Positions 29,408-31,875 of a stretch of 44,728 nt of DNA are shown here, piece after piece. Within the stretch, counting starts at the first letter, position 1, and each line of letters begins with the position of its first letter. The translations under genes and the position numbers were made by a program. Below the pieces are notes generated by a model. That model was not told where the DNA came from, did not search any database, and saw only the letters and a list, made by a program, of their open reading frames with translations. The DNA comes from Candidatus Dojkabacteria bacterium (GTDB lineage Bacteria; Patescibacteriota; Dojkabacteria; J137): positions 1-44,728 of the forward strand of contig JAMQHH010000028.1 of assembly GCA_025993875.1 (NCBI GenBank), given 5' to 3'.

Positions 29408-29416
29408 TGATATAAT
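29408..29416 (+). promoter_or_regulatory. Extended -10 box of a leaderless promoter (speD homologue)
   Basis: TGA followed by a perfect TATAAT. The last base lies 7 nt before the A of the ATG at 29423. Identical spacing to the two other predicted leaderless promoters. Confidence 0.65.
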
Positions 29417-29422
29417 ATAAAA

Positions 29423-29827
29423 ATGGAAACGATGCAGTTCGGATATCATCTTATGGTTGACATATACAATGCTAGTTCAGAGATTCTTTCTTCTATGGAG
29501 AGGTTATATGATTTGCTGGTTGAGTTGCCTAAAATAGTCAGTATGAATGTGCTAATCCCACCACTTTTAGTTAGGGCAGAAAGCAATGAAAAAAGGGGAG
29601 GCAAGGATCCTGGAGGAATAACGGGATTTACACTTATAGCAGAGTCTCATATCAGCTTACACTCCTTCCCTAAAAGAAGATTTTGCAGTATGGATATTTA
29701 TTCTTGCAAAGAATTTAACAAAGATATAGCTATTAGGTACATTTGCAGTTGCCTTGAGACAGAAGATATTGAAATAAACTTTACCAGCCGCGGAAATAGG
29801 TACCCAGCAAGCAATCTTGTTAAATAA
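29423..29827 (+). CDS. speD: SpeD-family pyruvoyl-dependent decarboxylase proenzyme
   Basis: A 134-residue proenzyme of the prokaryotic AdoMet decarboxylase family, which self-cleaves to create a pyruvoyl group. The processing site is AESHISLHSFP, with predicted cleavage between Glu74 and Ser75. Ser75, His80 and Cys95 have the same spacing (5 and 20) as the catalytic Ser63/His68/Cys83 of the Thermotoga enzyme. By family name it makes decarboxylated SAM for spermidine synthesis, but no spermidine synthase is nearby and the convergent neighbour is agmatine deiminase. SpeD homologues with arginine or ornithine decarboxylase activity are known, including from CPR bacteria, so arginine decarboxylase is a serious alternative. 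Its stop codon directly abuts that of the deiminase gene. Confidence 0.88.
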   Translation: METMQFGYHLMVDIYNASSEILSSMERLYDLLVELPKIVSMNVLIPPLLVRAESNEKRGGKDPGGITGFTLIAESHISLHSFPKRRFCSMDIYSCKEFNKDIAIRYICSCLETEDIEINFTSRGNRYPASNLVK

Positions 29828-30898
29828 TTAAGACGGCTGTTGGTGTAAAATACAATGGATATTTCCCCCGCCAATCAGTATTTCTTTTGAATAGATTCCG
29901 ATTACTTTATAGCCTTGCATTATCTCTTCAAGCTGTTTGATTGCTATATTATCAAATTTATCATTAAAAGTTGGGACAATTACAAATTTATTGCCAATAT
30001 ATAAATTAACATACGATGCTGGCAGACGTTGTTTATATTTTCTTTCTAAAGTGCCGGAAACCTTTTTTATTCCGTTTGCTTCTTTAGCTGTGATAAAGAT
30101 TGGATCGGGTTGATGCAATTTATGGATCTTTAGTTTTTTCCCTTTTGCATCTACTGCATTGCTTAGAATGTTATAGGCAGAAAGTGAGACTTGATATTGA
30201 GGATCTTCCTTATCTTCGGTCCAATTGATTATAACCTCCCCATTTTTTATGAACTGACATATGTTATCTACATGACCTAATGTTTCATCGAATCTTAATC
30301 CTAACTCCAGCCAAATAATTTGACTTACACCTAGGGCTTTTTTTAAAATTTCTTCTGCTTTCTCGATAGTTAGCTCTGGATTTCTTCTTGCATCCAAAAC
30401 GCTTTCCTTTGTAGTAATAAGTGTCCCATCTCCATCTGTAGTTACGGCTCCTCCCTCAAGAATAATTTCATACTTTTTTACAGGAATCTTTTGAGAACAA
30501 GCTATGGCGTAACCTAGGCTGTTATCATCACTCCAATCTTTATAGCATTCTTCGCCCCATGCGTTAAAATCCCACTTTACACATTGTAACTCTCCGTTAA
30601 CTTTTATATACTCTGGGCTTGTATCTCTAATCCAAATATCATTATATCTTAAAGGAATAATTTCAATATTTTCTTGACCAGCAAAAATTTTTGTAACTTT
30701 TGTGAGACTCTCTGTATCAACGCCCAAATAAACTTTCTCGAATTTAGAAATGATTCTAATAATATTAACTATTGTAGATTGGATAGGCACTGCATTATTA
30801 CGCCACACATCTGCCCTTGTAGGCCAGAGTACCCATGTTGCAGCATGGTCAAAAAATTCTGCTAAAAATTGTTTGTTTTGTTTTATTTTAATCCCCAA
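29828..30898 (-). CDS. aguA: Agmatine deiminase
   Basis: A 356-residue guanidino-group hydrolase converting agmatine to N-carbamoylputrescine and ammonia. Family motifs: FFDHAATWVLWPTRADVWR near the N-terminus, NDIWIRDTSP, FNAWGEE, LEGGAVTTDGDGTLITT, ETLGHVDNICQF with the catalytic His, and the nucleophile Cys349 in IGGGNIHCILHQQP. No ATG is available; TTG at 30898 is chosen because two -10 boxes lie just upstream. The frame remains open to a TTG at 30928, which would sit between and inside those boxes. It converges on the speD homologue with no intergenic base and is followed upstream by a regulator gene on the same strand. Confidence 0.92.
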   Translation of the reverse strand: MGIKIKQNKQFLAEFFDHAATWVLWPTRADVWRNNAVPIQSTIVNIIRIISKFEKVYLGVDTESLTKVTKIFAGQENIEIIPLRYNDIWIRDTSPEYIKVNGELQCVKWDFNAWGEECYKDWSDDNSLGYAIACSQKIPVKKYEIILEGGAVTTDGDGTLITTKESVLDARRNPELTIEKAEEILKKALGVSQIIWLELGLRFDETLGHVDNICQFIKNGEVIINWTEDKEDPQYQVSLSAYNILSNAVDAKGKKLKIHKLHQPDPIFITAKEANGIKKVSGTLERKYKQRLPASYVNLYIGNKFVIVPTFNDKFDNIAIKQLEEIMQGYKVIGIYSKEILIGGGNIHCILHQQPS

Positions 30899-30910
30899 TA
30901 TTAGGCAACT

Positions 30911-30939
30911 ATTATATAGAAATCCCAAGTATTATACCA
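30911..30939 (-). promoter_or_regulatory. Tandem -10 boxes for aguA
   Basis: Two minus-strand TATAAT hexamers, at 30936-30931 (preceded by TGG, an extended -10) and 30916-30911, 14 nt apart. They would give leaders of about 26 and 6 nt to the TTG at 30898. Two start sites could allow separate control. Confidence 0.5.
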
Positions 30940-31089: not shown

Positions 31090-31875
31090 TTATCCAATGA
31101 GATTCCACATTGCTTTGTGAAGCGCCTTAAAGCTAAGGGAAATATGCTTTGATTTTATTAAAGTTGCTATTAAATTTTCTGGATCAAGTTGAACAATGGC
31201 AAGATAATCATCAAATATTATATAGTCTGAAAACATAAACATATCACTCTCATCTTGAATTTTAAGAAATTTTGTATGATATTTAGGCTCGTTGATCTTT
31301 GACACAATTTCCCTAGATACTTTCGAGTCAATTATTATATCCCAAGCTTCCCTTTTAGGGTTGGAATGAAAAGAGTTGGTCCAAGTCTCGACAGAATTTG
31401 GGAATACTTTGTAGTATTTTTCAAGATCGGCAAATGAAAAATATTTCTCACTCTTAAAGCTTAAATCATATAAGTACTTTATCTCCTGTATCCCTTTATA
31501 ATACTTAACCTCAACCTCTGTATTCTCCCTCACCTTTGGAACAATGCTGTAGATTGTTTTTACAATATCAGGCATATTTTCCTCCAGCTTTTTAATATCC
31601 CACTTTTTCTGCTCCATTAAGAACTTAAGCTTTTCGGGATCTTCCGCAACAATCATCCTTCTTTCCCCATAGTTTGTTTGGCTTATAAGTCCTTTTTTTA
31701 TTAATTCCTCGACAGTATTATGAGTGGTAGATCTTTTTATACCTGTTTCCCGAGAAAGGTTCATTATAGTGTTTGGACCACTTTTTAAAAGGGTTAGGTA
31801 ACAGGTTGCTTCTTTATCTGTTAGTCCAAAATCCAGCAGATAATTTCTAATAGGCTTATCTCCTTTACTACTCAT
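31090..31875 (-). CDS. TrmB-family transcriptional regulator
   Basis: A 261-residue regulator of the TrmB type. The winged helix-turn-helix occupies residues 10-70: LLDFGLTDKEATCYLTLLKS, NLSRETGIKRSTTHNTVEEL, KKGLISQTNYGERRMIVAED. A coiled-coil linker follows (about 75-110, FLMEQKKWDIKKLEENMP) and then an effector domain ending in LHKAMWNL. TrmB proteins are commonest in archaea and usually sense sugars; the effector here is unknown. The aguA gene is next downstream on the same strand, making polyamine/arginine control possible. A strong promoter and a palindrome just past its predicted start site suggest autoregulation. Confidence 0.87.
   Translation of the reverse strand: MSSKGDKPIRNYLLDFGLTDKEATCYLTLLKSGPNTIMNLSRETGIKRSTTHNTVEELIKKGLISQTNYGERRMIVAEDPEKLKFLMEQKKWDIKKLEENMPDIVKTIYSIVPKVRENTEVEVKYYKGIQEIKYLYDLSFKSEKYFSFADLEKYYKVFPNSVETWTNSFHSNPKREAWDIIIDSKVSREIVSKINEPKYHTKFLKIQDESDMFMFSDYIIFDDYLAIVQLDPENLIATLIKSKHISLSFKALHKAMWNLIG

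Follow-up and report, generated by a model that had tools for sequence, protein, structure and literature searches.

The window analysed here is a whole contig (C25; 44,728 nucleotides) from a genome of 929,965 bases (about 930 kb) that is 96% complete; the source is a small bacterium with few genes, most likely one of the Dojkabacteria (WS6) within the Patescibacteria. Besides rpoB, rpoC and the gene for ribosomal protein S7, the contig carries a speD homologue and an agmatine deiminase gene (aguA), both with intact reading frames, followed by a regulator gene:

29423..29827, + strand: SpeD homologue, 134 aa, ATG start, best read as a pyruvoyl-dependent L-arginine decarboxylase of the SpeDA type (Pfam AdoMet_dc, AlphaFold, Foldseek, tree)
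29828..30928, − strand: agmatine deiminase (AguA), 366 aa with the TTG at 30928 as start, or 356 aa with the in-frame TTG at 30898 that the original prediction used (TIGR03380, PDB agmatine deiminases)
31090..31875, − strand: TrmB-type transcriptional regulator (Pfam TrmB, 7.2e-13), on the same strand as aguA and upstream of it

The genes speD and aguA stand tail to tail with a spacing of zero, the TAA of speD (29825-29827) abutting the complement of the aguA TAA (29828-29830). The speD gene is preceded by an Elp3 gene, and the TrmB-type regulator may, judging from its position, be tied to the pair. Base composition gives no sign of a recent foreign insertion, the GC contents of SpeD (37%) and AguA (34%) being ordinary for the contig and inside the range of the window. 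By eye, a TATAAT-like box can be recognized about 8 bases ahead of the speD ATG (window 29409-29423), with no evident ribosome-binding site; this arrangement suggests an mRNA that is leaderless or has a very short 5' leader.

The original prediction had named an agmatine deiminase as the immediate neighbour of SpeD, and the profile search agrees, with AguA scoring 400 bits against the agmatine deiminase model TIGR03380 (cut-off 381.8). Among solved structures, it is most closely matched by the agmatine deiminases 1vkp/3h7c, and comparison with 1vkp shows retention of the motifs NDxWxRD, FNAWG, EGG, GHVDN and GGNIHC. Judged by its equivalog profile and catalytic motifs, AguA is an agmatine deiminase. 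The closest Patescibacteria relatives (38-39%) occur in clusters with putrescine carbamoyltransferase (PTC) and an antiporter, while in other members of the phylum AguA has AguB (16 loci) and/or a caldomycin-synthase-type gene (14 loci) for a neighbour. L070, L072 and L077, from three Patescibacteria genomes that share a genus, carry a PTC-type gene, an amino-acid antiporter and AguA in a row, which by gene content is a catabolic agmatine deiminase cluster. Carbamate kinase belongs to the catabolic AgDI operon; none was detected among the adjacent genes scanned at these three loci.

The SpeD reading frame matches Pfam AdoMet_dc (E=3.4e-22), and Foldseek returned the Thermotoga maritima AdoMet decarboxylase (AdoMetDC; 1tmi, E 2.3e-10, TM 0.88 on target) as the best PDB match to its AlphaFold model (mean pLDDT 97.1). 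The Ser75/His80/Cys95 residues and the ESHIS processing site of the original prediction are present as described, the site reading AESHIS. Profile, fold and the Ser/His/Cys processing residues place SpeD in the class 1b AdoMetDC/SpeD superfamily. Against the NCBIfam AdoMetDC equivalog TIGR03330 it falls below the cut-off (68.4 versus 75.65 bits), which is not decisive by itself, as other members of its clade score from 64.9 to 85.6 bits. The codons of the processing residues and of the altered active-site positions, as aligned to the Thermotoga enzyme, are as follows:

29645..29647, + strand: Ser75, predicted self-processing site giving the pyruvoyl group; aligns to Thermotoga Ser63
29660..29662, + strand: His80; aligns to Thermotoga His68
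29705..29707, + strand: Cys95; aligns to Thermotoga Cys83
29603..29605, + strand: Lys61, replacing Thermotoga Phe49
29666..29674, + strand: Phe82-Pro83-Lys84, replacing Thermotoga Trp70-Pro71-Glu72

In an alignment of 113 homologues, K61, F82 and K84 of SpeD occupy the positions of Thermotoga F49, W70 and E72. The classical homologues, which include the solved Thermotoga and Aquifex enzymes and the second copy in tandem SpeD pairs, show Trp-Pro-Glu at 70-72; position 49 is mostly Phe, and of the W70-type homologues with a residue at that position nearly all have Phe. From Thermotoga ligand structures such as 3iwb-3iwd and from human ligand complexes, we take F49, W70 and E72 to be contacts to the adenosine part (adenine and ribose). 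Pro83, in turn, is taken to match a site described in the literature as conserved among AdoMetDCs but not among SpeDA enzymes; finding the proline here is compatible with a SpeDA. Because SpeD keeps this Pro while its nearest relatives carry Ala or Ile, the published mark was left aside as a test.

In the SpeD tree, 16 W70-type rows, including the Thermotoga and Aquifex AdoMetDC, form one side of a branch with support of 99/89 that appears in every one of 200 bootstrap trees, and row L061 joins them there as a 17th. The window SpeD lies on the opposite side, together with L094 and L002, in a tree of few columns and several long branches whose finer placement is unsure. The original prediction, an arginine decarboxylase, had been staked on SpeD lying outside the canonical AdoMetDC clade, as it does here. 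The placement is anchored by classical AdoMetDCs, close relatives and gene neighbourhoods. Neither its grouping in the tree, nor retention of W70/E72, nor a SpeE partner in the genome connects SpeD with AdoMetDC, and the view that it is not a classical AdoMetDC is supported at the level of sequence and context.

To survey gene neighbourhoods, 84,980 named species genomes were scanned and the best 80 loci of the SpeD clade were taken. Of these 80, 23 have an agmatinase or a caldomycin-synthase/deoxyhypusine-synthase-type gene no more than 6 kb away, and SpeE is near one (L125), which carries a W70-type SpeD as well; W70-type SpeDs also adjoin SpeE in L177 and L182. In the deltaproteobacterial loci of the clade, an agmatinase (TIGR01230, above cut-off) usually begins 7-30 bases past speD. 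L126 and L143 encode a caldomycin (1,9-bis(guanidino)-5-aza-nonane) synthase (NF002699, above cut-off), which in Thermus has been demonstrated to couple two agmatine molecules (PMC10981699). The copy scanned at the archaeal locus L166 is an ordinary deoxyhypusine synthase and is uninformative on agmatine. A Microcystis phage, MaAM05, has SpeE, agmatinase SpeB and two SpeD genes, one classical and one of the window's kind, in a row (L176:1989-4767). The cluster is a possible complete arginine-to-spermidine route, and the presence of both SpeD kinds together provides an internal control for our reading of SpeD. Phages yielded only distant SpeD relatives (best 34%) and no AguA-SpeD pair, and no relative of the window SpeD was found in the viral contigs.

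Other arrangements recur around the SpeDA-type genes. A caldomycin-synthase-type gene adjoins the SpeDA-type gene at five loci, four of them Patescibacteria-like (L106, L126, L142 and L143) and one, L168, gammaproteobacterial, and these loci are predicted to encode an arginine-to-caldomycin route without putrescine. In many Patescibacteria (L097, L098, L099, L114, L135, L136, L158 and others), an EamA-type transporter and/or a sensor histidine kinase follows the SpeDA-type gene within a few kb, with a sensor histidine kinase in 22 of the best 80 clade loci and a response regulator too at L094:5303-9410. Such loci are possibly units for the export and sensing of agmatine or a guanidino-polyamine.

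Family searches of the whole window genome, which contains one SpeD, detected no spermidine synthase SpeE (PF01564), extending to the genome the original prediction that none is present. They likewise detected no CN_hydrolase and hence no AguB, no agmatinase (SpeB) and no deoxyhypusine-synthase-type gene (PF01916). No OTCace_N domain of an ornithine, putrescine or aspartate carbamoyltransferase was found in the genome, while all 14 control genomes have this family. The sole amidase in the genome is GatA, and AguY (PMC12283126) is accordingly absent. Because AguB, SpeB, AguY and PTC are not encoded, unless in the unassembled part of roughly 4% where a downstream gene may still sit, the known ways of making putrescine from agmatine or N-carbamoylputrescine are absent. 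ATP formation through carbamoyl phosphate was rejected, as the genome has no carbamoyltransferase of any kind, and so was use of agmatine by a deoxyhypusine-synthase-type enzyme to form caldomycin or homospermidine. The original prediction thus divides: its arginine decarboxylase is well supported by the non-classical SpeD with changed F49/W70/E72 positions, by the lack of SpeE and by clade neighbours that consume agmatine, whereas its proposal that the carbamoyl group could feed ATP formation or putrescine synthesis is not supported, the genome having no carbamoyltransferase, AguB, agmatinase or AguY.

AguA was found in 1 of the 86 genomes of the class, that of the window, and SpeD in 6 of the 86; the window genome has one copy of each. 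We estimate the chance adjacency of two such single-copy genes at about 2 in roughly 900 genes, and the zero spacing together with the single copies argues for a shared role. Across the phylum, 26 of 380 Patescibacteria genomes have AguA, 68 have SpeD and 3 have both (4.7 expected), so that SpeD is present in 3 of the 26 AguA-bearing genomes; a general SpeD-AguA partnership was rejected, co-occurrence not being above chance. AguA was absent from beside SpeD at all other SpeD loci examined, and among everything searched the adjacency was seen solely in the window genome. Two other Dojkabacteria of the same family (G005 and G006) have SpeD without AguA, and therefore SpeD can do without AguA. 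The pair is a local arrangement.

SpeD homologues that decarboxylate arginine or ornithine and not AdoMet, invoked in the original prediction, are a real precedent (PMC10407285, PMC9992855), the latter paper covering phage cases. Published SpeDA enzymes (Li et al. 2023) occur with speB, speY or aguA-aguB, lack AdoMetDC activity by assay, and are distributed over bacteria, CPR and DPANN (PMC10407285). Like them, the window combines a class 1b SpeD fold, the S/H/C processing residues, a genome without SpeE and an adjoining agmatine-consuming gene. The published cases have an onward route to putrescine or homospermidine (speB or aguA plus aguB, mostly with speY), whereas the window genome has aguA alone of these. 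In the speDA cluster of Ca. Diapherotrites (PMC10407285), SpeDA is also linked to agmatine deiminase, but in that cluster AguA and AguB form a fusion and SpeY is encoded as well, while the window AguA is solo and convergent. The catabolic AgDI operon (AguA, PTC, antiporter) uses the same AguA family; the window genome differs from it in lacking PTC and in having a predicted arginine decarboxylase in place of agmatine uptake.

With SpeD lacking a SpeE partner and accompanied by an agmatine-using enzyme, as expected for SpeDA, the best reading of SpeD is an enzyme of this type, for which we infer the substrate from the context of the clade. SpeD would process itself to a pyruvoyl enzyme and decarboxylate L-arginine to agmatine, which AguA would deiminate to N-carbamoylputrescine and ammonia. 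It is likely that the two proteins act in this way and that the route ends there with no known next enzyme; the end point at N-carbamoylputrescine and ammonia follows from the absence of the searched downstream families. N-carbamoylputrescine would then be exported, or taken by an unrecognized enzyme, and the two-gene route would release CO2 and NH3 and consume protons.

It is unlikely that SpeD, as an arginine decarboxylase, belongs to a pathway separate from AguA, with AguA acting chiefly on agmatine that neighbours supply by scavenging and the agmatine of SpeD being exported or serving in signalling. Such a separation would fit G005 and G006, the lack of a co-occurrence excess in the 380 genomes, and the EamA transporter and/or sensor histidine kinase adjoining SpeD in many CPR loci, but the only AguA among 86 genomes directly abuts SpeD, and no agmatine importer was recognized among the window proteins scanned. 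We consider it quite improbable that SpeD is a pyruvoyl L-ornithine decarboxylase (SpeDC) making putrescine directly. These enzymes do occur in CPR with a common fold (PMC10407285), and the tree has the SpeD clade and the ETSH-type rows on one side; SpeD does not cluster with those rows, however, and at the Gln, Thr and Phe of the SpeDC marks Gln/Thr/Phe/Tyr it has Ala73, Glu74 and Ser81, by a mapping deduced from published text and phage homologues. Moreover, none of the putrescine-using enzymes searched (SpeE, deoxyhypusine-synthase type) is in the genome, and the adjoining AguA would be left without a role.

A bona fide AdoMetDC feeding an aminopropyltransferase missed by the SpeE search, such as one of the BpsA type, is highly improbable. 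BpsA-SpeD fusions occur in the same phylum, but SpeD scores below the equivalog cut-off, lies outside the W70 clade and has lost the equivalents of W70 and E72, and there is neither SpeE in the genome nor BpsA (PF01861) within the window.

Returning to the SpeDA-AguA route, the analysis establishes the genes, the predicted fold, the processing residues, the clade and the lack of the downstream families, while we infer substrate, flux and purpose; the route may serve to take up protons and give off ammonia, to trade with a host cell, or to supply a further enzyme. One tentative possibility is an arginine route cut to two enzymes in an ultra-small bacterium, which would use protons and release ammonia with no energy gain and no polyamine, N-carbamoylputrescine passing to a host cell or to a new enzyme family. 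Enzymes of the SpeDA type have been described before; what is new is the pathway's apparent truncation. If the reading is true, the gene that would receive an AdoMet decarboxylase annotation in Dojkabacteria and in many other Patescibacteria encodes an arginine decarboxylase, and in the metabolism predicted for these bacteria, which are probably host-dependent, agmatine production takes the place of spermidine synthesis. The dead end at N-carbamoylputrescine raises the question of what role agmatine and its derivative have in a cell making no polyamine by any route searched.

The survey also showed a BpsA-type aminopropyltransferase domain (PF01861) fused to a C-terminal AdoMet_dc domain in single ORFs of about 457 aa (L056:442-1815 and L062:445-1815). 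No paper describing such a fusion was found in the literature searched. The AdoMet_dc site of both fusions reads NSNLVIHTWPE, and AdoMet_dc lies inside frames of about 430-480 aa in many more Patescibacteria genomes, mostly of family f54.
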